Origin: Clostridia bacterium
Lineage (GTDB): Bacteria > Bacillota > Clostridia > Oscillospirales > Acutalibacteraceae
NCBI GenBank assembly: GCA_017399405.1
Contig: JAFQCT010000004.1
Coordinates: 1-64,000 of the forward strand
Direction: 5' to 3'
Length of the DNA stretch: 64,000 nucleotides
Shown: one piece after another, positions 220-28,589 of the stretch
Layout of the letters: each line of letters begins with the position of its first letter
Numbering within the stretch: the stretch's first letter is position 1
Translations under genes and position numbers: made by a program
Notes under the pieces: generated by a model
What the model was told of the DNA's origin: nothing
The model's input: the letters and a program-made list of their open reading frames with translations, nothing else
Databases searched by the model: none

Positions 220-272
220 TTGAAAATGGTCATATACTGTGATATTATACTTTCCGCACAGAACAAATGTTC
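220..272 (+). promoter_or_regulatory. Sigma-A promoter with LexA-type SOS box
   Basis: TTGAAA (220-225), a 17-nt spacer and TATTAT (243-248) form a good promoter. Just downstream is GAACAAATGTTC (261-272), which matches the Gram-positive LexA/DinR operator core and sits where a bound repressor would block transcription. The same 12-bp core recurs at 22685-22696. Confidence 0.75.
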
Positions 273-292
273 GGTACAGAAAGGAGGCAGAA

Positions 293-12294: not shown

Positions 12295-13503
12295 TTATTC
12301 CTTAATCATAAGTGATTTAACAATTGCTGTCATTTCTGCTTCACCGTAGATTACAGGAACTGGGTAAAGCGGGTTGCCTTCTTTAAGTGCACGCTCTACG
12401 ATAATTGGAATATCTTCTTCCTTAATCTGTGCAAAGCCCTTTGGAATATTCATTCTTTCGTTCATTGCATAGATTTCAGCAATGAATTTCTTTGCCATTT
12501 CTTCTTCGCTTTCGCCACTAATACCAACGATATCAGCAAGTCTTGCGAGCGGTGCATAAACTGCTTCGCCATAGCTTTCAAGCATTACAGGAAGAATAAC
12601 TGCATTTGCAAGACCGTGAGGGATACCATACTGACCGCCAAGGTTGTGAGCAACTGCGTGAACATAACCAACATAAGCACGAGTAAATGCCATACCTGCA
12701 TAGTAAGATGCTAAAAGCATATTGTTTCTTGCTTCAATATTTTTACCGTCTGTGTATGCTGTTTCAAGGTTTTCAAAAATCATTTTTGTAGCCTTTTCAG
12801 CATACTGAGTTGTTGATTTAACATTTGATTTGCCAATGTATGCTTCAACTGCGTGAGTAAGAGCGTCCATACCTGTTGTTGATGTGATGTGTGGTGGAAG
12901 ACCTACTGTAAGTTCAGGGTCAAACACTGCAAATCTTGGACGAAGGAATGGGTCGTTACAAGCATTCTTTTCGTGTGTCTTTGAGTTAGAAACAACCGCT
13001 GCAAGTGTGCATTCTGAACCTGTACCTGCTGTTGTTGGAACTGCAAAGAATGGTGGGAGTGGACGAAGAATTTTCATAAGTCCACGCATTTTTTCAACCG
13101 GCTGATTTGGTTTAACAACTCTTGCTGCTGCAATTTTTGCACAGTCCATTGGTGAGCCACCACCAAATGCGATAATACCCTGACAACCGTTAGCTTTATA
13201 CATATCTTTTGCTTCTTCAATGTTTTCGATTGTTGGGTTTGGCTGAGTACCGTCATAAACTACATACTCTACTCCTGCTTTGTCCATTTCTTCGTAAAGC
13301 GAGTTGAGAAGTCCAAGAGAAGTCAGACCTTTATCTGTTACGATAAGTACTTTTTTAAGTCCCTTTTCTTTAATGAGATTAGGAAGTTTGCGAATACTAC
13401 CTGGGCCTGTAAGCATAAATGGCTCGCCCCAAGGTAAAAAGCATTCCATAACCATCATAACTTTCTGGAAAACTCGGCAATATGCCTTGTAAAATTGATT
13501 CAT
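12295..13503 (-). CDS. Iron-containing alcohol dehydrogenase
   Basis: 402 residues, typical of group III dehydrogenases. The NAD(P)-binding loop is FGGGSPMDCAK; TTAGTGSE follows. Metal ligands lie in GMDALTHAVEAY and in HAVAHNLGGQYGIPHG (Asp/His triad). It reduces aldehydes to alcohols or runs the reverse reaction during fermentation; the exact substrate (butanol, ethanol, lactaldehyde) cannot be told. It lies 35 bases downstream of ribF on the same strand with no obvious terminator between, so read-through from the rimP operon is possible, though its function is unrelated. Confidence 0.92.
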   Translation of the reverse strand: MNQFYKAYCRVFQKVMMVMECFLPWGEPFMLTGPGSIRKLPNLIKEKGLKKVLIVTDKGLTSLGLLNSLYEEMDKAGVEYVVYDGTQPNPTIENIEEAKDMYKANGCQGIIAFGGGSPMDCAKIAAARVVKPNQPVEKMRGLMKILRPLPPFFAVPTTAGTGSECTLAAVVSNSKTHEKNACNDPFLRPRFAVFDPELTVGLPPHITSTTGMDALTHAVEAYIGKSNVKSTTQYAEKATKMIFENLETAYTDGKNIEARNNMLLASYYAGMAFTRAYVGYVHAVAHNLGGQYGIPHGLANAVILPVMLESYGEAVYAPLARLADIVGISGESEEEMAKKFIAEIYAMNERMNIPKGFAQIKEEDIPIIVERALKEGNPLYPVPVIYGEAEMTAIVKSLMIKE

Positions 13504-20651: not shown

Positions 20652-21131
20652 TTAGTCAATGTCGCCGATTCCGCCGAAATCGTCTGCTTTAATCCAAGAT
20701 GCTTCTTTTTTTAATATATTCATTTCGGTTTCTTCATCAATAGCAATTGTAACGCTTTCATTGTCGTAGTCAATAAGAATACCTTTGTATTCTCTCTTGC
20801 CCTCAAAAGCCTTGATAAGTCTAACCTGAATTTTTTCACCTAAATAGCATTCAAAGTGAAAATCCCTGCAAAGTTCACGCTCAATACCGGGGGATTGTAC
20901 CTGTAAATTGTACGCTTGTTCAATTGGGTCTGCTTCATCTAACGGACCGTCAATTGCGTGGTGCATTGTGACACAATCGTCAATACTTACACCGTCTTCT
21001 TTGTCAATAGTAATGCGAAGATACCAACGAGCACCCTCTTTAACGAATTTAACATCCCAAAGAATAAGACCTAATTCGTCTGCAATAGGCTTGGCAATAT
21101 CCCAAACCACTGAGGCAGTGTTTTTTTTCAT
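20652..21131 (-). CDS. rimP: Ribosome maturation factor RimP
   Basis: 159 residues. N-terminal alpha/beta domain with LGLILWDVKFVKEGARWYLRI and ITIDKEDGVSIDDC, then LQVQSPGIERELC and a C-terminal Sm-like barrel. It assists early 30S assembly. It is the first gene of the minus-strand translation operon and follows a leader with a strong hairpin. AGGAGG lies upstream of the ATG. Confidence 0.96.
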   Translation of the reverse strand: MKKNTASVVWDIAKPIADELGLILWDVKFVKEGARWYLRITIDKEDGVSIDDCVTMHHAIDGPLDEADPIEQAYNLQVQSPGIERELCRDFHFECYLGEKIQVRLIKAFEGKREYKGILIDYDNESVTIAIDEETEMNILKKEASWIKADDFGGIGDID

Positions 21132-21191
21132 AAAAACCTCCTGTTAATATTAAATTGTCATTGTTTTGAAAAAATACCCTAATAAACTCAA

Positions 21192-21213
21192 GAGAGCGGG
21201 TCGCCCCACTCTC
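21192..21213 (-). promoter_or_regulatory. Hairpin in the rimP operon leader
   Basis: Transcribed as GAGAGTGGG-gcga-CCCGCTCTC (one G-U pair). There is no T-run after it, so it is not a terminator. A similar hairpin before rimP occurs in other Firmicutes as far as I recall, suggesting a leader structure for feedback or stability. Confidence 0.6.
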
Positions 21214-21242
21214 TGTCAATACGGATATTCTTGCCATAACGA

Positions 21243-21271
21243 ATAATACCATATTTTTTTTCAAAAATCAA
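21243..21271 (-). promoter_or_regulatory. Promoter of the rimP-nusA-infB operon
   Basis: On the minus strand, TTGATT (21266-21271), a 17-nt spacer and TATTAT (21243-21248). Confidence 0.7.
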
Positions 21272-21337
21272 TAGTTTTTGCCAAAATTATATACAATAAT
21301 ATATAGTAATTGCGAATTGCGAATTCTACATTACGAA

Positions 21338-21523
21338 TTATAGGTCATCTGCATCTTGTACGGGAACTTGGAATCCGTCAGGGTTGCCTGTGTAACTTCC
21401 GTTTGTGTCAAATTGACCATCAGGGTCGTACGGAGACCAAATTTCTGAGATTTCTTCACTTAATTTATCAATTTTTTGTTTTGTTTCATAAACTTTGTCT
21501 TTTTTATTTTTCTTGAAAAACAT
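21338..21523 (-). CDS. Small hydrophilic protein ending in a PVQDADDL motif
   Basis: 61 residues. A basic start (MFFKKNKKDK), an amphipathic helix (KQKIDKLSEEI) and an Asp/Gly/Pro-rich C terminus with GSYTGNPDG and a final PVQDADDL. I recall this GSYTG...PVQDADDL tail from other clostridial small proteins of unknown function, but cannot search here. AGGAGG lies eight bases upstream of the ATG, which supports a real gene and this start over a GTG at 21532. Confidence 0.7.
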   Translation of the reverse strand: MFFKKNKKDKVYETKQKIDKLSEEISEIWSPYDPDGQFDTNGSYTGNPDGFQVPVQDADDL

Positions 21524-21601
21524 TTTTTGCACCTCCTGTAGTTATTTTTCCCCGATACGCTCATAAAATAAAAAAGAAAAGAAAAATATTAAAGAAAAAT
21601 G

Positions 21602-21630
21602 TTGACTTTTCATTTCGATTTGGTTATAAT
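21602..21630 (+). promoter_or_regulatory. Promoter of the acidic surface protein gene
   Basis: TTGACT (21602-21607), a 17-nt spacer and TATAAT (21625-21630). Confidence 0.75.
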
Positions 21631-21685
21631 GAACGAGAATAGAGGTGTAATACCCGATTTTTCACGCGAAAGGATAATGATTATT

Positions 21686-22378
21686 ATGAAAAAGACTCTT
21701 TCAATAGTTCTTGCATTGGCTATGGTTTTTGTTATGGGCTTCTCAGCTTTTGCTGAAGGTGAAGACCTTACTCCAGTTAAACCAACTGACCCTGCAGAAC
21801 TTGGTGTTTATTATGCAGACCTTCTTAATGCTGAAGATTCAGACCCAGCAGCAGTTGCTCAAATGGTTCTTGACGATTTGATTATTGCTGAAGGTGACGA
21901 AGGCATTTATACAGTAGAAGACCTTCCTGTAGTTTTGGAAGCTTTTGTTGAAAATTCAAATGATGCAGACAAACTTTTAGCAGCTGCTGAGCAGATTACA
22001 GCAGGTCTTGAAAGTATGGGCATTGTTCTTCCTGAGTTTGATGATATTCTTCCTCCTCCATCTGGTGAAGATGAAGAAAGCACTCTTCCTGAAGACGAAG
22101 AACCAACAGATGACACAGGTTTCCTTAACACAATCCTTGGCATCCTTGGTTCAATCGGCGATATGATTTTCGGTGGTGGCGATGACACTCCAACAGATGA
22201 CCCAGCAGGCGACAATGGTGACGACACTTGGGGTGACGGTGACGCTGATACTAACGGCGATGACGACGATTTAGTTTCTGATACAGGTGACACAACAGTT
22301 ATTTCTGTTGCAGCAGTAGCACTTGTAGCAGGTGCAGCTCTTGTTCTTACAAGAAAAAAGAGTGAAGACGCTGAATAA
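21686..22378 (+). CDS. Acidic surface protein with sortase-like C terminus
   Basis: 230 residues. Signal peptide 1-23 ending FSAFAE; a helical acidic domain (about 25-125); a low-complexity Asp/Glu/Pro/Gly stretch interrupted by a hydrophobic segment (TGFLNTILGILGSIGDMIFGG); then SDTGD, a hydrophobic helix and RKK. SDTGD plus helix plus basic tail resembles a relaxed sortase sorting signal, although a strict LPXTG is absent. The inner ATG at 21686 follows AAAGGATAA and gives a clean signal peptide. Function unknown. Confidence 0.75.
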   Translation: MKKTLSIVLALAMVFVMGFSAFAEGEDLTPVKPTDPAELGVYYADLLNAEDSDPAAVAQMVLDDLIIAEGDEGIYTVEDLPVVLEAFVENSNDADKLLAAAEQITAGLESMGIVLPEFDDILPPPSGEDEESTLPEDEEPTDDTGFLNTILGILGSIGDMIFGGGDDTPTDDPAGDNGDDTWGDGDADTNGDDDDLVSDTGDTTVISVAAVALVAGAALVLTRKKSEDAE

Positions 22379-22410
22379 GTCTTTTACATAATTTCATAGT
22401 TGATATTGCA

Positions 22411-22442
22411 GACGGAAATCTTAACGGTTTCCGTCTTTTTTA
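22411..22442 (+). terminator. Rho-independent terminator
   Basis: GACGGAAA pairs with TTTCCGTC, followed by a T-run, after the acidic surface protein gene. Confidence 0.85.
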
Positions 22443-22449
22443 TTTTGTT

Positions 22450-22610
22450 TAACCACTGATTTCAATCTTAGTCATAAGCATTGATGGATAATTTTTTGCC
22501 ATTTCGCCCTAAAATCTTCGGTAATACACAAAGTATTGCCTGCGGTTTTGAGACAAAATATCTAAAAATTTCTCTCACCAATTCTTATAACACGATTTTA
22601 TCAGTGGTTA
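22450..22610. mobile_element. MITE-like element with 11-bp terminal inverted repeats
   Basis: TAACCACTGAT (22450-22460) and ATCAGTGGTTA (22600-22610) are perfect inverted repeats bounding 161 bp without a plausible gene. The interior is A/T-rich with a TCGCCCTAAAATCTTCGG block. No flanking target duplication could be defined. No second copy was noticed in the window. Confidence 0.55.
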
Positions 22611-22641
22611 TTTTTCTTTTCGGAGAGTTGCGAAGATTTTC

Positions 22642-22697
22642 TTGACAAACCCATAATATGTTGCTACAATAATAAATGCAAGGCGAACAAATGTTCG
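22642..22697 (+). promoter_or_regulatory. Sigma-A promoter with LexA-type SOS box
   Basis: TTGACA (22642-22647), a 17-nt spacer and TACAAT (22665-22670) form a near-consensus promoter. CGAACAAATGTTCG (22684-22697), a LexA/DinR-type operator, covers the start of transcription. It drives the phage-derived lysis/adhesin cassette. Confidence 0.85.
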
Positions 22698-22703
22698 ATA
22701 GAT

Positions 22704-22740
22704 AAAACCGCGTTGATTTTTTAACGGGGTTTTTATTTTT
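22704..22740 (+). terminator. Leader terminator between SOS promoter and cassette
   Basis: AAAACCGCGTT (22704-22714) pairs with AACGGGGTTTT (22723-22733) with one mismatch, followed by TATTTTT. It lies between the LexA-box promoter and the first gene, so part of the transcripts should stop here unless antitermination occurs. Confidence 0.6.
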
Positions 22741-22771
22741 CTGAAAATAGTTCTTGAAAGGGGAGTTTTAT

Positions 22772-23188
22772 TTGTTACAAGACATCAAAATAAGAGAAAT
22801 GTCAAAAGAAGAATATTTTTTTCTTACTGAAAACTTAGAATTTGTTGATAAAAACTCAATCTGCAACGGTGTTCGTTATCTTGTTTACAACAAGAAAAAA
22901 CGATTGCTTGATGTGGTGCAAAAAGTAATGCAGAATGAGTTAACAGAAGACGAGCGTAATCTGGCAATCGATTATTGGAGTGGTGAATATTCATTAGGGG
23001 AGATTTCAAAGAGAAATAATATTACACGCTCTGCAATATACAGACATATTGATAGTATCAAAGAAAAAATTGAAACTTCACTAAAATATGTTCTTATTTA
23101 TGATGCCAACGCTTTGCCACAATCAACAAATGAGTTAATGAACTTTATCAAGGAGACACAAATTGAGCAAAGAAACAATGTCAGTTGA
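22772..23188 (+). CDS. HTH regulator of the SOS-linked phage-like cassette
   Basis: 138 residues. The middle (about 55-110) contains a sigma-region-4-like helix-turn-helix, LTEDERNLAIDYWSGEYSLGEISKRNNITRSAIYRHIDSI in character, where a conserved acidic first helix precedes the recognition helix. It lacks sigma region 2, so it is not a complete sigma factor; phage late regulators and RNA-polymerase sigma-70-like proteins have this form. The TTG at 22772 follows AAAGGGGAG at good spacing. It is the first gene after the LexA-box promoter and leader terminator, so it may activate or antiterminate the cassette; that is inference. Confidence 0.75.
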   Translation: MLQDIKIREMSKEEYFFLTENLEFVDKNSICNGVRYLVYNKKKRLLDVVQKVMQNELTEDERNLAIDYWSGEYSLGEISKRNNITRSAIYRHIDSIKEKIETSLKYVLIYDANALPQSTNELMNFIKETQIEQRNNVS

Positions 23189-23399
23189 AGATTTAGGAAA
23201 AGAATATGAAAAGCACGCTGAAATACAGCAACATTTCATTGATAAATGCAAGGCAGAAATCAAAAAAGCAAAACAATCGGGGGATACGGATACGGTTACA
23301 AAACTTCAATCAGATTTACGAAAATTTTACGAAATCAAAAAAGAACTTGAAGAAACCGCAATCCACTTAAAAAACTATTATAAAAAAGGAGATTTTTAA
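23163..23399 (+). CDS. Small coiled protein of the cassette
   Basis: 78 residues, charged and probably helical. The TTG at 23163 follows AAGGAG with seven bases between and overlaps the regulator gene by 26 bases. It is a weak paralogue of the 79-residue protein at 293-532 (shared LG..Y, charged helical middle, L..YY end), which also sits behind a LexA box. Its stop overlaps the start of the next gene. Function unknown; a chaperone-like or structural partner of the baseplate/adhesin is one possibility. Confidence 0.8.
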   Translation: MSKETMSVEDLGKEYEKHAEIQQHFIDKCKAEIKKAKQSGDTDTVTKLQSDLRKFYEIKKELEETAIHLKNYYKKGDF

Positions 23400-25159
23400 T
23401 GGAAACAAAAATTATTTCTATTGACATATCACCCGAAATAACCGAAACGCAAACTGAAAATGCAGGCGTAATGTGGGAACATAACGCAACAACACTTGTG
23501 TTTAATATTCATAAGGCATATATGGGCGATTACAGATATTATCTTGAATACCGTTCACTTCTCGGTACAAAAGTCAGAACAGAATATCTTGAACCTGACC
23601 TTGAAACTAATACGGTTACATATAACATTCCTGTAACAATGAGTTCTCTCAAAGGGGTTGAGTGCTATTTCAATATTGTGTCAATTGACGGTGACGGTAA
23701 TACAGTTCAGGTAATCAAACCTCATAAGTTCTGTTTGCAGTTTGATTATTCCCCTGACACCGATAACTCACTTGCAAAAGTCAACGATTTTTCAATCAAC
23801 GCATTACTTGAAGCAATCCGTCTTGGCACTTTTAAGGGGGATAAAGGTGATAAAGGCGACATAGGTGCAAAAGGTGACAAGGGCGATAAAGGTGACACAG
23901 GCGAAGTTTCAATGGATTACGCAACAGACAACTTTGCGAATGCAATAAAGAAAACTGTAACGGGTAATCCTATAAACCTTGATGACGCGTCAACAATCCC
24001 ACACACTCTTAATATAAAAACTATTGCAGATACAAAAGTGCATATAAGAGGTAAAAACCTTATTCCTTTTACAGATAAAAAGTATAACGGTAAATATCAG
24101 GCAGGGCAAACTTATGAATTGAACGGTGTCAACTTTACATTCAATGATGATGGGTCTGTATATGCCAAAGGCACCGCAACAAATGCGGTAGTTTTACCAT
24201 TAGTATATTGTTCAACATATACCAAAGGTATTCATACTGTAACATTGAGCGGTAGTCCACAGGGTGCGTCTGCTACAACATACTGTTTAAGACTTAAAAA
24301 CGGTACAGAAGCAACAGCAAACTATGAAGACTACGGTAACGGTAAAACCGTCAACAATGTGGATTTGTCAGGTTGTTCAGTCTATATCATTGTTATTGGC
24401 GGGCAAACGGTAGATGCTACATTTTACCCTATGCTTGAATTCGGCAATACTGCAAGTGATTTTGTTTCACCTTGCGAAAGTGTTTTAGCAACAGCAGACG
24501 AAAACGGAGTTGTAAGCGGTGTTAAATCCGTTGCAACAGAAATGAGCATTTTCACAAACACAACCCATATTATTGAATGTACTTATAACTGTGACACTTC
24601 AAAAGTAATTGAAAAAGCAAAAGAAGATGCAACAAAAGAGTTGAACAAAGTGAAAGAAGATATTGCAAATCTTGGGTATCGTTTAATAAACACCATAACA
24701 ATTGACAATGATGCTCAACTTGTTGCCTTTTCAACTGATATTGACAACAACACCCTTGAAAGCCAGAAATTAAGCAGATTCTTTATTTTGTTTACTGGCA
24801 GTTTTGTGAATACTACTCAGTCTCAACCATTATGCGTATTGCTTAATAGTGGTGGGGTATATCAAATGTATAAAACTTTCAACATTACAGCAAATAACTA
24901 CTGCGGATTATGGCTTGAATGTGAAAAGATTATCTCGCTTGCTGACAGAAGTGTGTATAAAAGCACATATCCGTCAACGCTTTTGGGCAATTTTAATGCG
25001 GATACGGGTATGGCACAAGGTCTTAACGCTAACAATTCACCTTTGTATTCAGATTTAAGCGTAGTAAATACAGATAAAATTCAAAAAATAACATTTGGTT
25101 GTTTTAACAGTAATAATCTTATGAAATCGGGCAGTAAAATCTATTTGTTCGGAGTATAA
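23399..25159 (+). CDS. Phage baseplate-type/collagen-like adhesin
   Basis: 586 residues. The N terminus (about 1-130) resembles phage baseplate upper proteins (BppU-like). Residues about 142-165 are a collagen-like Gly-x-y run built on GDKGDKGDIGAKGDKGD units, a trimerisation stalk common in tail fibres. A carbohydrate-binding-like beta region and a short coiled coil (VIEKAKEDATKELNKVKED) follow, then a C-terminal receptor-like domain. In phages such proteins adsorb to host glycans. Here there are no head, tail tube or tape-measure genes, so the protein may act as a host adhesin or a released particle component. Start overlaps the previous stop. Confidence 0.75.
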   Translation: METKIISIDISPEITETQTENAGVMWEHNATTLVFNIHKAYMGDYRYYLEYRSLLGTKVRTEYLEPDLETNTVTYNIPVTMSSLKGVECYFNIVSIDGDGNTVQVIKPHKFCLQFDYSPDTDNSLAKVNDFSINALLEAIRLGTFKGDKGDKGDIGAKGDKGDKGDTGEVSMDYATDNFANAIKKTVTGNPINLDDASTIPHTLNIKTIADTKVHIRGKNLIPFTDKKYNGKYQAGQTYELNGVNFTFNDDGSVYAKGTATNAVVLPLVYCSTYTKGIHTVTLSGSPQGASATTYCLRLKNGTEATANYEDYGNGKTVNNVDLSGCSVYIIVIGGQTVDATFYPMLEFGNTASDFVSPCESVLATADENGVVSGVKSVATEMSIFTNTTHIIECTYNCDTSKVIEKAKEDATKELNKVKEDIANLGYRLINTITIDNDAQLVAFSTDIDNNTLESQKLSRFFILFTGSFVNTTQSQPLCVLLNSGGVYQMYKTFNITANNYCGLWLECEKIISLADRSVYKSTYPSTLLGNFNADTGMAQGLNANNSPLYSDLSVVNTDKIQKITFGCFNSNNLMKSGSKIYLFGV

Positions 25160-25174
25160 AAAGGAGTTGACAAA

Positions 25175-26056
25175 ATGGCAGTTTATAAAGGTATAGATGT
25201 TTCAAAATGGCAAGGCGAAATCAATTGGAGTCTTGTAAGAAATGCAGGGATTCAGTTTGCTATGATTCGTGCAAGTTTCGGTTGGGGTAAGGGCCAAAAA
25301 GATAGGTTTTTCAATACAAATTACACGGGTGCTAAAAAGGTTGGTATTCCTGTGGGTGCTTATCATTACTCTTATGCTACAACCGTTGAAGATGCAGTTA
25401 AAGAGGCTGAACTTTGCTATTCAATTATTAAGGGGAAAAAGTTTGAATACCCTATCGCTTATGATATGGAAGAAAATCGCGTTGCCGCATTAGGTAAAGA
25501 AAAAGTATCAGCAATTGCAAAGGCTTTTTGCGAAAAAATGGAAAGTTACGGGTATTATGTTTGCATTTACGCTAACAAACATTGGCTTGACAACTATTTT
25601 ACAGATGAGATTTTCAAAAAGTACGATATTTGGCTTGCTCAATGGAGCGAAAAGCCAACTTTTGAGCGTACTTACGGTATGTGGCAGAAAACCTCAAAAG
25701 GTAAGGTGAACGGAATTGAAGGTAATGTGGATTTAGATGAATCTTACAAAAACTACCCTGCAATTATGAAATATAACGGGCTTAACGGATTTGGTGCACC
25801 AATCGAGGCAAAACCACCAAAACGCGGATTTACAGCAGGGCAAAAAGTAGTGCTTAAAAATGCAAAACTTTATTCATCTGCATGGAGTGATGTTGTAAAA
25901 AATCATTTAAGCGGTACTTATTATATTTACGATGGTATCTATTTTGAGGGCAGATACAGGGTTACAAACTCACTTTCAAATGTAGAGCGTAAGCCAATCG
26001 GCAAATATGTAACGGGTTTTGTTCACCGTGACGATATGAGGGATAAAAATGCTTGA
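25175..26056 (+). CDS. GH25 family lysozyme (endolysin)
   Basis: 293 residues. The GH25 muramidase domain (about 1-195) begins YKGIDVSKWQGEINW and carries the catalytic Asp-x-Glu in YDMEEN, then WLAQWSEK and VDLDESY. A C-terminal SH3-like wall-binding domain follows (about 210-290, GFTAGQKVVLKNAKLYSS). It cuts N-acetylmuramic acid to N-acetylglucosamine bonds in peptidoglycan. There is no signal peptide, so release would depend on the holin gene two genes downstream. GGAG precedes the ATG. Confidence 0.92.
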   Translation: MAVYKGIDVSKWQGEINWSLVRNAGIQFAMIRASFGWGKGQKDRFFNTNYTGAKKVGIPVGAYHYSYATTVEDAVKEAELCYSIIKGKKFEYPIAYDMEENRVAALGKEKVSAIAKAFCEKMESYGYYVCIYANKHWLDNYFTDEIFKKYDIWLAQWSEKPTFERTYGMWQKTSKGKVNGIEGNVDLDESYKNYPAIMKYNGLNGFGAPIEAKPPKRGFTAGQKVVLKNAKLYSSAWSDVVKNHLSGTYYIYDGIYFEGRYRVTNSLSNVERKPIGKYVTGFVHRDDMRDKNA

Positions 26057-26303
26057 AAACGAGATGCTTAACCATCGTCTTGACAAAGTTGAATCCGATA
26101 TACAAATCTTATACAAAAAAGTCAATGATGTAACACTTACACAAGTCCAAAGTGTCACAAAACTTGACAGTATGCTTGTAACTCTCGGCGAACTGAAAGA
26201 GAGTATAGAGGCACTAAAAAAGCGACCAAGTTGGTTGTGGGATAAAGTTATAATCGCATTGATAAGTGCTCTTTGCGGTGTAGTGGTAAGTCACATTTTT
26301 TAG
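26049..26303 (+). CDS. XhlA-like membrane protein
   Basis: 84 residues. A coiled-coil N terminus (NHRLDKVESDIQILYKKVND) precedes one membrane helix at the C terminus (WDKVIIALISALCGVVVSHIF). This is the architecture of XhlA/hemolysin-type proteins that work with a holin in PBSX-like lysis. It overlaps the lysozyme gene by 8 bases. Confidence 0.8.
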   Translation: MLENEMLNHRLDKVESDIQILYKKVNDVTLTQVQSVTKLDSMLVTLGELKESIEALKKRPSWLWDKVIIALISALCGVVVSHIF

Positions 26304-26311
26304 GAGGAAAG

Positions 26312-26554
26312 ATGATAGAATATATTGTAGAAAACGCACTTGTGTTAGTGCCGGTGCTTAATATAATTGGTATGATAGTAAAGAATACCGAGAAAATCAA
26401 TAACAAATACATACCGTTAATTTTACTGTTTTTCGGTATTGCGGGAACAGTTGCAATATTGGGATTAAGTCCCCATAGCGTTGTGCAAGGTGTTTTAGTT
26501 ACAGGCACAGCAGTTTATGGAAATCAAGTTGCAAAACAATTAAAAAGTGAATAG
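26312..26554 (+). CDS. Phage-type holin
   Basis: 80 residues with two or three membrane helices (IVENALVLVPVLNIIGMIV, YIPLILLFFGIAGTVAILGL, and the VVQGVLVTGTAVYG segment) and a short charged tail, like holins of superfamily V. The ATG at 26312 has AGGAGG upstream; the in-frame ATG at 26273 does not. It is the last gene of the cassette and would open the membrane for the GH25 lysozyme. Confidence 0.8.
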   Translation: MIEYIVENALVLVPVLNIIGMIVKNTEKINNKYIPLILLFFGIAGTVAILGLSPHSVVQGVLVTGTAVYGNQVAKQLKSE

Positions 26555-26564
26555 AATATTATAA

Positions 26565-26591
26565 GGCGGGGTCAACACCCCGCCATTTTTT
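26565..26591 (+). terminator. Terminator of the lysis cassette
   Basis: GGCGGGGT-caac-ACCCCGCC then a T-run directly after the holin gene. It closes the SOS-promoter transcription unit. Confidence 0.92.
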
Positions 26592-26618
26592 GTATAACTG
26601 TTTCTTTTTATATTCTTA

Positions 26619-26647
26619 TTGACTTTAACTCCCATAGATTTTATAAT
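26619..26647 (+). promoter_or_regulatory. Promoter of the RING-like protein/murT/gatD unit
   Basis: TTGACT (26619-26624), a 17-nt spacer and TATAAT (26642-26647). Confidence 0.8.
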
Positions 26648-26671
26648 ATTTTACAGAAAGGTGAGATGTTT

Positions 26672-27211
26672 ATGGCAAACCTTATATGTGCAAAATGCAA
26701 TCAGCCAATCGATGAAGAAAATGCGGTTGAATGTCCTTTTTGCTGGGAAATATATCATAAAGAGTGTTGGGAAGATACCGAAAACTGTGTGACCTGTAAA
26801 AAGTATAACCCTATTTACGAAATGGCACAGGCACAAAAAGAAGTTGAAGCACAAAATCAACAAAACGAAGAAAATGAACTTAAAGATAAAGAAAACACTG
26901 TCGATGATGATTTTTCACAGTTCAATAATATAGAAACACCATCTTCACATATCGCAAATTCCGTACTTATTGTTTCAAATGTAGCACTTGTATTGGGCGT
27001 AGTGCTTGGTGTTGCACTTGCTGTTTATTATTTTATTCTTGGCGGATTTACAACCGGAATAGTTGGTGCTGTAATGGGTGCTATTATAGCGGCTATAGGT
27101 TGGGTTATATCGGTGCTTATTAAAGGATTTGCCGAACTTATAAACAACTCTCAAAAAAACGCTTATTACTTATCAAAATTAGTTGAAAAGCAGAAAGAAA
27201 AGGACGAATAA
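26672..27211 (+). CDS. RING-finger-like zinc-binding membrane protein
   Basis: 179 residues. The N terminus (ICAKCNQ...CPFCWEIYHKECW...CVTC) has a Cys/His pattern of prokaryotic RING-like zinc fingers. An acidic Gln/Glu linker follows, then two hydrophobic helices (about 95-155). The ATG at 26672 is preferred over one at 26666, which touches the ribosome binding site AAAGGTGAG. It is one base from murT, so they share a transcript, but its role in cell wall work is not known. Confidence 0.75.
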   Translation: MANLICAKCNQPIDEENAVECPFCWEIYHKECWEDTENCVTCKKYNPIYEMAQAQKEVEAQNQQNEENELKDKENTVDDDFSQFNNIETPSSHIANSVLIVSNVALVLGVVLGVALAVYYFILGGFTTGIVGAVMGAIIAAIGWVISVLIKGFAELINNSQKNAYYLSKLVEKQKEKDE

Positions 27212-27212
27212 A

Positions 27213-28589
27213 ATGGGTAAATTAAGATTTTTAATTGCTTTGATTGTGGGCAAGGTGTCAATTTTCTTGCTTGATAAAATTTTTAAGAGAGGTACAAATC
27301 TTCCGGGCGAGATTATGCTTAAAATCTGCCCTGATGCACTCTCTCGTTTCACTATGCCTAAAACCACTGTTTGCGTAACAGGTACAAACGGTAAAACAGG
27401 CACATCAAATTTGCTTACACACATAATCCGTAATAGCGGTAAAACTGTTGTAAACAACTCAAAAGGCTCAAATATGGCACCCGGTCTTGTAACTGCACTT
27501 GCTTCTGATTGCACATTAGGTGGCAAAGTAAATTCTGATGTTGCGGTGCTTGAGGTTGATGAGCGTTCATCACAGTTTATCTATACAAAATTTGTGCCGG
27601 ACTACATTCTTTGCACAAACCTTTTCCGCGATTCAATTATGCGTAACGGTCATAGTGGATTTATTTTTGACAAAATCAACGATTATCTTGACGAAAAAAC
27701 TACACTCGTTCTCAATGGTAATGACGGTATTTCAGGACTTTTAGGTGAGAATAAGTGTAATCGTGTATTCTTTTCTGTAGACAAAACAGAAAGAAGTACA
27801 GATGTTTGTGAAGACACAGTTTGCGACCTTATTGCTTGCCCAAAATGTAATCATAAGTTAGACTATGAGTTTTATCACTACAATCATATTGGTGTACCAA
27901 AGTGTAATTATTGCGGATTTTCTATGCCACAAAGCACATATTTTGCAAGTGATGTGGATTTTGAGAATGGTACTTTTGTATTTAATGGTGACAAGGGCGA
28001 AAGTCTTGTTTTACCGTATCAAAAGGGCAATTTCTTCAATGTTTTCAACATTACAGGGGCTTGTGCAATATGCAGACTTATGGGAATTGATATTGATATA
28101 ATCGCAAACAGTATTGAAGATTTATCATCAAAAACAGGTCGCTTTCAAGAGAATAAATTTGGCGGAGTAGAGGTTGTTTCAATGCTCTCAAAAAACCAAA
28201 ATCCAATCTCTTGTTCACAAAGTCTAAAATTCCTTGATAGCACAGAAAATGACAAAGATGTAGTGCTTTTAATTACTGACAGTAATGATAAAGTTCACGG
28301 TCACGAAGATATTTCATGGCTTTATGACACCGATTTTGCACCGCTCACAAGTGATAAAATCAAGAATATTTACATTGGTGGTTCTCGTTGTTACGATTTG
28401 GCACAGTGCCTTGAAATTAAAGGCCTTGACACCGAGAAGTTCATTCTTTTTGAAAACTATGACGAGTTGGCAAAAGAGGTCAGCAACAATGCAATCAGTG
28501 ACAGAAATATTGTGATTTATTTTGAACTTTATGCCACAAGCGTAGTTGCAAAAATTAAAAATGCGTTAAAAGAAAAGGGGGAGAACTGA
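27213..28589 (+). CDS. murT: Lipid II isoglutaminyl synthase subunit MurT
   Basis: 458 residues. Mur-ligase middle domain with the ATP loop VTGTNGKTGTSN; a Cys4 zinc-ribbon insert CPKC...CNYC typical of MurT; and a C-terminal MurT domain (DUF1727). With GatD it amidates D-glutamate of lipid II to D-isoglutamine. It is followed by gatD after two bases. The ATG at 27213 has AAAAGGA nearby and gives the canonical N terminus. Confidence 0.94.
   Translation: MGKLRFLIALIVGKVSIFLLDKIFKRGTNLPGEIMLKICPDALSRFTMPKTTVCVTGTNGKTGTSNLLTHIIRNSGKTVVNNSKGSNMAPGLVTALASDCTLGGKVNSDVAVLEVDERSSQFIYTKFVPDYILCTNLFRDSIMRNGHSGFIFDKINDYLDEKTTLVLNGNDGISGLLGENKCNRVFFSVDKTERSTDVCEDTVCDLIACPKCNHKLDYEFYHYNHIGVPKCNYCGFSMPQSTYFASDVDFENGTFVFNGDKGESLVLPYQKGNFFNVFNITGACAICRLMGIDIDIIANSIEDLSSKTGRFQENKFGGVEVVSMLSKNQNPISCSQSLKFLDSTENDKDVVLLITDSNDKVHGHEDISWLYDTDFAPLTSDKIKNIYIGGSRCYDLAQCLEIKGLDTEKFILFENYDELAKEVSNNAISDRNIVIYFELYATSVVAKIKNALKEKGEN

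Follow-up and report, generated by a model that had tools for sequence, protein, structure and literature searches.

Organization of the cassette

We describe here a cluster of six tightly packed genes, hereafter the cassette, at positions 22,642 to 26,591 of a 64,000-nucleotide stretch of DNA (the window: positions 1 to 64,000 of the forward strand of contig JAFQCT010000004.1, assembly GCA_017399405.1) from a bacterium of the clostridial family Acutalibacteraceae. The contig is 174,967 bases long, begins with the window, and belongs to a genome of 1,958,783 bases that is 97.5% complete. The cassette couples a putative helix-turn-helix (HTH) regulator, which we call REG, to a fibre-like adhesin and phage-type lysis genes, behind a promoter with a predicted LexA operator. 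A preliminary description of the window had named the promoter, the LexA-type box, the six packed genes, and the terminator, and all of them were recovered at the following coordinates:

22642..22670, + strand: sigma-70-type promoter (TTGACA at 22642-22647, 17-nt spacer, TACAAT at 22665-22670, TG before the second hexamer; 11 of 12 matches)
22684..22697, + strand: predicted LexA operator CGAACAAATGTTCG, palindromic, about 14 nt past the -10 hexamer
22704..22733, + strand: leader hairpin (AAAACCGCGTTG..AACGGGGTTTT) and then a U-rich run, terminator-like, -13.3 kcal/mol, between the operator and the first ribosome-binding site
22772..23188, + strand: REG, a 138-residue regulator with a sigma-region-4/YlxM-like HTH (TTG start, GGGGAG upstream; Pfam UPF0122/YlxM-like, 2.6e-7, over the cut-off)
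23163..23399, + strand: c5, a small coiled protein of 78 residues with no convincing family (17 of 39 loci; also found after REG in other genera)
23399..25159, + strand: fibre-like adhesin with a beta-rich N-terminal domain, helix, collagen-like stretch, and variable C-terminal part (29 of 39 loci)
25175..26056, + strand: GH25 lysozyme, an endolysin (Pfam 9.1e-33; PHROG endolysin 6e-52; 39 of 39 loci)
26049..26303, + strand: XhlA-like membrane protein (PHROG hemolysin 5.1e-6; Pfam below the cut-off; 30 of 39 loci)
26312..26554, + strand: holin of the Hol44 family (Pfam 7.3e-20; 37 of 39 loci)
26565..26584, + strand: intrinsic operon terminator, from a terminator scan

The locus counts come from a comparison of 40 genomes of the window's genus, in which 39 loci (the window and 38 fetched REG regions) were searched in six frames with models built from those same loci. 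Up to ~8-9 kb of flank was fetched on each side, some flanks being ended by contig ends, and 7 kb downstream was compared; second, weaker REG matches in two genomes (G000 and G015) were excluded from the counts. The nine loci that lack the XhlA-like protein have in its place c9, an unrelated small membrane protein. Because the two are never found together and never both missing, they seem to do the same job. Since the adhesin is missing from 10 of the 39 loci, lysis is the constant function of the cassette, with the adhesin an accessory that is probably receptor-binding.

The adhesin had been labelled a BppU-like collagen protein. The collagen part of this label stands, in the form of a weak match that is the only one to Pfam; the BppU part, resting on architecture, found no Pfam match, and no BppU model is among the Pfam families matched by 25 adhesin relatives. 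In a structural model that is poor overall (mean pLDDT, the per-residue confidence measure, 57), the first ~118 residues are beta-rich with fair to good confidence and are followed by a helix (residues 121-142) and the collagen-like stretch, which is also the region where an upper-fibre protein of a phage (PDB 6v8i) matches weakly, at E 0.0024. The C-terminal parts vary between species, with a GDSL lipase in 2 of the 25 relatives, a phosphodiester glycosidase in one, and a YadA head in one, a variety reminiscent of receptor-binding or depolymerase parts.

Predicted LexA control and a conserved leader hairpin

The cassette promoter is the joint best of the 16 promoter-like sites scanned in the region, where such sites are not enriched (shuffled mean 15.2, sd 3.4), and the same promoter arrangement is readable upstream of REG in the other loci of the genus. 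Of the 39 loci, 32 have a box of the form [CAG]GAAC[AG]NN[TC]GTTC[GT] no more than 200 nt before REG, with 25 of these being exact CGAACAWWTGTTCG; elsewhere in the same loci it is seen once in 657,247 bases. In the window's genome the exact CGAACANNTGTTCG is present in one place, the cassette operator. This operator matches the boxes of the genome's own SOS genes: recA has CGAACATTTGTGCG directly upstream, and lexA has the near-identical CGAACAAATGTTTAC in its upstream region. By sequence, the cassette thus falls within the predicted LexA regulon of its host, as had been proposed at the outset, and LexA itself (TIGR00498) is present in 37 of the 40 genus genomes.

Between the operator (or its place) and the first ribosome-binding site, all 39 leaders can form a hairpin with a U-run at or below -8 kcal/mol, a threshold we set ourselves, versus 18 of 156 dinucleotide shuffles; a stricter terminator scan did not report the leader hairpin of the window, and Rfam gave no match within window positions 21000-28000. 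Because the stems diverge in sequence between clades while their pairing persists, the leader hairpin is suggested to function as RNA. The late operon of phage lambda runs from a promoter through an early terminator to lysis genes; the cassette, with its putative early terminator, resembles it in this order, and no Q-like protein was identified at the cassette.

Similar boxes are seen at a few other places. A second LexA-like box (AGAACAAATGTTCG) lies at window positions 260-273, just 5' of a stand-alone relative of c5 (open reading frame [ORF] at ~294-532; profile E 1.3e-9), and the same pairing of a box (AGAACATTTGTTCT) with a c5-type gene is seen in another genus (L371, 864-), near a head module of the kind described below. 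In the window's own genome, a one-mismatch LexA-like box (L006 1501-1514; C16:3835) is found just upstream of a small four-cysteine ORF that by eye resembles a zinc-binding Com-type phage protein.

Inheritance of the cassette

REG is found in 39 of the 40 genus genomes and in 28 of the 28 good-quality ones, with one cassette locus per genome at differing chromosomal sites. In the window, the genes around the cassette are chromosomal: nusA and rimP with their operon neighbors (by eye) to one side and MurT/GatD-type genes to the other. In close pairs, dN/dS is 0.08-0.28 for REG (11 pairs), 0.02-0.10 for GH25 (12 pairs), 0.02-0.08 for XhlA (6 pairs), and 0.03-0.13 for the holin in eight of nine pairs, the ninth (1.94 at dS 0.017) being uninformative. 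Distances between the cassette proteins also correlate with those between LexA sequences (30 LexA sequences; r 0.60 for REG, 0.77 for GH25, and 0.71 for the holin). Vertical inheritance, about one copy per genome, and purifying selection are features by which a gene transfer agent (GTA) is recognized, and all are found here. By these measures, the cassette is a host trait and no relic; the view that it is phage-derived and domesticated is upheld, its parts being of phage type.

The gene types and their order recall a phage late operon at its distal end, and the cassette could be read as what remains of a prophage, as one of its ends, or as a phage satellite that uses a helper. The pattern of inheritance just described makes such an origin highly improbable, as do the surroundings. 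No phage structural genes were noticed in the fetched flanks of the 39 loci; a search for the same gene order in relatives without a prophage had been put forward as a check. In the window itself, the six-frame ORFs contain no head gene and no tail seed, which bears out the earlier remark that phage structural genes are absent nearby; an integrase was looked for by eye alone, among the listed ORFs between 12 and 36 kb, and none was recognized. Among 50,697 phage records searched with REG and the adhesin by tblastn, only MT835647 matched, and REG was not confirmed in IMG/VR by pattern-limited scans. The prophage reading was rejected on the single loci, their differing sites, and the lack of structural genes in the fetched flanks. 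The record MT835647 (L190, 237-3503), filed as "Bacteriophage sp.," holds the cassette amid genes that read as bacterial chromosome and is itself probably chromosomal.

A head module at a separate locus

Weak single portal matches occur in 22 of the 40 genus genomes, three of them over the cut-off. The match in the window's genome, on another contig (C10), belongs to a compact set of head and packaging genes:

C10:158446-164453: stand-alone head module, with small terminase, large terminase, portal, protease-like, major capsid, and three connector-like genes, and nothing else phage-like
C10, head module: small terminase (Pfam 1.7e-13)
C10, head module: large terminase (2.2e-15, from 357 of 420 residues)
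C10, head module: portal (PHROG 2.9e-129)
C10, head module: protease-like protein (phrog_16951, 2.1e-85, its function unnamed there)
C10, head module: major capsid protein (MCP; Pfam 1.2e-18, PHROG 4.2e-98)
C10, head module: head-tail adaptor (2.9e-4), plus two further small proteins

The module is bordered by MarR and ABC-exporter genes on the left and a transporter on the right. The same block is present in two further genomes (G006 and G036) and at 18 more loci of the genus; 13 of the 21 loci yielded the full set of eight genes, and the other eight loci were affected by contig ends or by miscalls of a simple ORF caller. A capsid profile (A4, 28 sequences) finds MCP in 37 of the 40 genus genomes. 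The cassette had been described as being "without a phage," which does not hold for the genome as a whole, since head and packaging genes form a complete module of their own on a different contig. GTAs are further marked by phage-type genes for capsid and packaging that reside in the chromosome of the host. In neither locus were the remaining genes of a temperate prophage recognized: the cassette and the head module are separate, and no integration, excision, or replication genes were recognized on reading the flanks of both, integrase models not having been run per locus.

The link between the two loci extends beyond the genus. In other genera, all 20 genomes chosen for a good REG match carry MCP, versus 6 of 20 controls with a poor one (Fisher p 3e-6, uncorrected for kinship); the former were hand-picked from the 29 best REG-scoring genomes outside the genus, nine being omitted, and the latter were hand-picked among the poorest REG scores and are neither random nor matched by genus. 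In other families, matches to REG with E between 1e-4 and 1e-15 were taken to reflect the HTH alone and do not enter the counts. A survey of the order (395 genomes of completeness at least 90%, 172 genera) finds MCP in 101 genomes from 52 genera and at least five families, and a REG match above 60 bits in 12, all of which have MCP and ten of which belong to the window's genus. The REG relatives whose assemblies were named (16 loci) come from metagenome-assembled "Clostridia," "Oscillospiraceae," and "Ruminococcaceae" bacteria, several of them from animal guts. Several MT83xxxx records and IMG/VR contigs of ~10 kb that carry the head module may, like MT835647, be host DNA.

The head module shares the evolutionary behavior of the cassette: dN/dS lies mostly between 0.02 and 0.3 at both loci, and MCP distances correlate with those of LexA (r 0.45) and REG (r 0.60). 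On this genomic evidence, the cassette and head loci are both intact and essentially single-copy, evolve under purifying selection, and occur jointly across the genus. We consider it likely that a host-owned, two-locus GTA-like element, probably tailless and under direct LexA control, has in the cassette its locus for regulation, receptor binding, and lysis.

The head loci are almost devoid of LexA-type boxes (one in 41 loci and 589,619 bases, fronting a different gene), so that any damage control of the head genes must run through a trans-acting factor, for which REG is the obvious candidate. The same scarcity of boxes can be turned in favor of a stand-alone SOS lysis device, by which damaged cells would burst and supply public goods in the form of DNA, enzymes, membrane vesicles, or the adhesin, the head module being an unrelated domesticated element. 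The cassette does hold just the regulator, the adhesin, and the lysis genes. However, the head module co-occurs with it in the genus and in other genera with similar patterns of divergence, and there is a precedent (FpGTA, below) in which separate capsid and lysis loci both contribute proteins to particles (PMC12946183). We therefore regard a free-standing lysis device as unlikely, its case being aided somewhat by the 10 of 39 loci that do without the adhesin.

Comparison with known gene transfer agents

The closest known system is FpGTA of Faecalibacterium (PMC12946183, Nat Commun 2026), which comprises a 10.5-kb packaging and capsid locus and a separate 5.5-kb locus of tail-fibre, receptor-binding, holin, and endolysin genes, ~125 kb from the capsid locus in one genome. 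Its particles, as reported there, are 40 nm in size, hold ~9 kb of host DNA, have no visible tails, and contain proteins of both loci; in the part of the article available to us, DNA packaging is reported, transfer is not shown, and no replication genes are reported (PMC12946183). FpGTA I and II resemble the present element in having terminase, portal, and capsid genes at one locus and fibre, holin, and endolysin genes at another. They differ in that FpGTA I is described with some tail components, whereas the head module of the window's genome ends at the connectors, and in that FpGTA II was undetected in seven strains, whereas the window-type cassette is present in 39 of 40 genomes of its genus. 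A LexA operator and a regulator, both predicted for the cassette, do not appear for FpGTA in the available text of PMC12946183, from which the words "LexA" and "promoter" are absent and in which SOS is named once, as a likely general property of GTAs. The two-locus GTA class was thus already known (FpGTA, PMC12946183), and what is most likely added here is direct LexA control, an own regulator, and the near absence of a tail. Our literature search, with preprints and most subscription literature outside its scope, found no publication on a LexA operator, regulator, or tail loss of such an element, and none besides PMC12946183 on the system itself.

The preliminary description had supposed that an adhesin or cell contents would be released, an idea that finds no support here. 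With a head module in the same genome and DNA-filled capsids described for FpGTA (PMC12946183), a DNA-containing particle is the more likely product.

In RcGTA, the HTH-type protein GafA is a direct activator, and control is exerted by CtrA and quorum sensing, with LexA acting via CckA (PMC6363796). Both systems combine GTA genes with an HTH activator (a candidate one here) and with a lysis cassette regulated as a target of its own (PMC6363796), and GafA may be regarded as a functional parallel of REG. They differ in that LexA acts indirectly in RcGTA, through CckA, whereas in the present element a predicted LexA operator adjoins the regulator-lysis operon itself, and REG looks sigma-region-4-like.

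A further comparison is offered by an element of Bacillus subtilis. PBSX is host-owned, packages host DNA, and is released by a holin and endolysin after SOS induction. Its genes form a single contiguous prophage-like block that includes a full contractile tail, whereas the element described here consists of two small loci with hardly any tail genes.

Probable loss of the tail

SOS-type control of the PBSX kind, together with a fibre-like adhesin whose C-terminal domains vary (GDSL lipase, phosphodiester glycosidase, YadA head), would also suit a tailocin or PBSX-like killing particle, to which the cassette would supply a baseplate adhesin and lysis for a phage-tail bacteriocin. The census of tail genes renders this proposal most improbable. 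Among the 40 genus genomes, Sipho_tail is found in one, PhageMin_Tail in five, and Baseplate_J in two, with none of the three in the window's genome; some of these matches lie in apparent prophages, and one is in a genome with 9% contamination. Outside the genus, tail seeds stand beside the head genes in 1 of 18 head loci (G045). The tailocin reading was rejected on the rarity of the three tail families in the genus.

Traces of a tail that was probably lost may be preserved in related elements. In IMG/VR contigs with a related capsid (48 loci), the connectors often run on into baseplate-type genes, and two loci (L231 and L265) continue also into sheath-like and tube-like genes, all as judged by eye. 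In 10 of the 18 other-genus head loci (L358, L359, L360, L361, L365, L366, L367, L368, L369, and L374), the last connector measures ~275-281 residues versus the usual ~143, and its C-terminal extension gives matches (6e-22, 2e-19, and 3e-16) to the fibre-like gene that comes last in three tailed versions. The simplest account of these long connectors would be that the tail was deleted and the neck thereby fused to the fibre. The window's genus has the short connector, and its fibre-like adhesin is found instead in the lysis locus (29 of 39).

REG as a candidate activator of the head locus

The C-terminal half of REG matches YlxM, sigma-70 region 4, and phage sigma-like or activator families, with a sigma-like PHROG matched in 20 of 32 REG relatives; the ArpU NCBIfam model is not among the families listed for REG and two relatives (for one relative, the best 25 of 54). 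In several other genera, REG reaches ~200-220 residues with an added XRE-type domain (by eye). A regulator acting at a distance would fit the loci in which REG stands behind a LexA box without lysis genes: in genus g4 (L163, L167, and L168), the box is followed by REG and c5 in two genomes (G042 and G258) with no same-strand lysis genes adjoining, and by REG alone, likewise without same-strand lysis genes, in another (G176, L167). Elsewhere (G228, L172), a REG relative (2e-21) directly precedes the terminase- and portal-like genes of what by eye is an apparent real prophage, a position that would be the usual one for a late-gene activator. A hairpin with a U-run is also found upstream of the small terminase gene terS in head loci (e.g., L184 ~12300-12446); since only 8 of 14 reach the threshold, a leader mechanism common to the cassette and the head locus is no more than a hint.

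LexA control would act at the very moment of prophage induction, and a conserved, host-owned cassette might accordingly serve in anti-prophage suicide, with SOS-timed lysis killing the host before the induced prophage matures. Among defence families, PADLOC gave a single match, in which REG weakly resembles a CARF-type profile (2.6e-4), and this proposal leaves the adhesin and the co-occurrence of the head module unexplained; we hold it to be very unlikely.

For a two-locus, LexA-controlled GTA-like element, a sequence of events can be proposed. DNA damage would remove LexA from the cassette operator, and the transcript would also have to get past the terminator-like leader. REG would then activate the head locus, and the terminase would load host DNA into small capsids, to whose neck the adhesin or an equivalent domain would attach for receptor binding. 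The holin, the XhlA-like protein, and the lysozyme would lyse the cell and free the particles, which may carry bacterial DNA between cells.

Several observations weigh against parts of this scheme. Allowing one mismatch, the operator pattern is found at six places in the genome (one of them the recA box) versus eight for a reversed-pattern control; the genome-wide count is therefore no evidence, and conservation carries the operator call. Seven of the 39 loci (in G022, G008, G029, G036, G035, G010, and G007) are without a box before REG and share another promoter type beginning with TTGACAAGTAACA (L078, L080, L084, L088, L091, L094, and L095), even though the lexA upstream regions available for six of these genomes (not for G035) do carry LexA-like boxes. 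For this reason, SOS control of the cassette is best described as ancestral or dominant and not universal, and another regulator may have replaced LexA in the TTGACAAGTAACA loci. MCP is found without a good REG match in 6 of the 20 controls and in most of the 101 MCP-bearing genomes of the order, so that either REG diverges or other regulators serve there. Within the genus, three genomes (G005, G009, and G029) have the cassette with no MCP found, and in one (G028) the reverse is seen. Finally, no shared REG-binding motif emerged: a CTATWTATGG-like stretch lies upstream of terS in only part of the 18 loci, following the hairpin and U-run where it is present before the head module. An unbiased 9-mer count before the head locus gave no motif that we would claim, as the best 9-mers (T-rich, in 10 of 18 versus 5 of 18 in three simple shuffles) were mostly U-runs.

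Broader implications

The pattern may extend to a family-wide or wider class of SOS-triggered, tailless transfer particles in gut Clostridia, a possibility that falls a little short of being probable. In such a class, LexA would directly govern a dedicated sigma-like activator, which would share a transcript and its terminator-like leader with lysis genes and would act on a distant capsid locus; the tail would have been shed and host recognition moved either to the neck, as at the ten loci of other genera, or to the lysis locus, as in the window's genus.

If these proposals are true, damage to the DNA of abundant gut anaerobes, as caused for example by antibiotics, would be a direct trigger of lysis and of the release of capsids loaded with bacterial DNA, and such release would be a lineage-wide, inherited trait. 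The predicted LexA operator and the predicted activator offer a regulatory handle on a class of GTAs reported only in 2026, whose genetic signature, as traced by the capsid gene, is widened from Faecalibacterium to 52 of the 172 sampled genera of the order. They are joined by a testable account of how a transfer particle may lose its tail.

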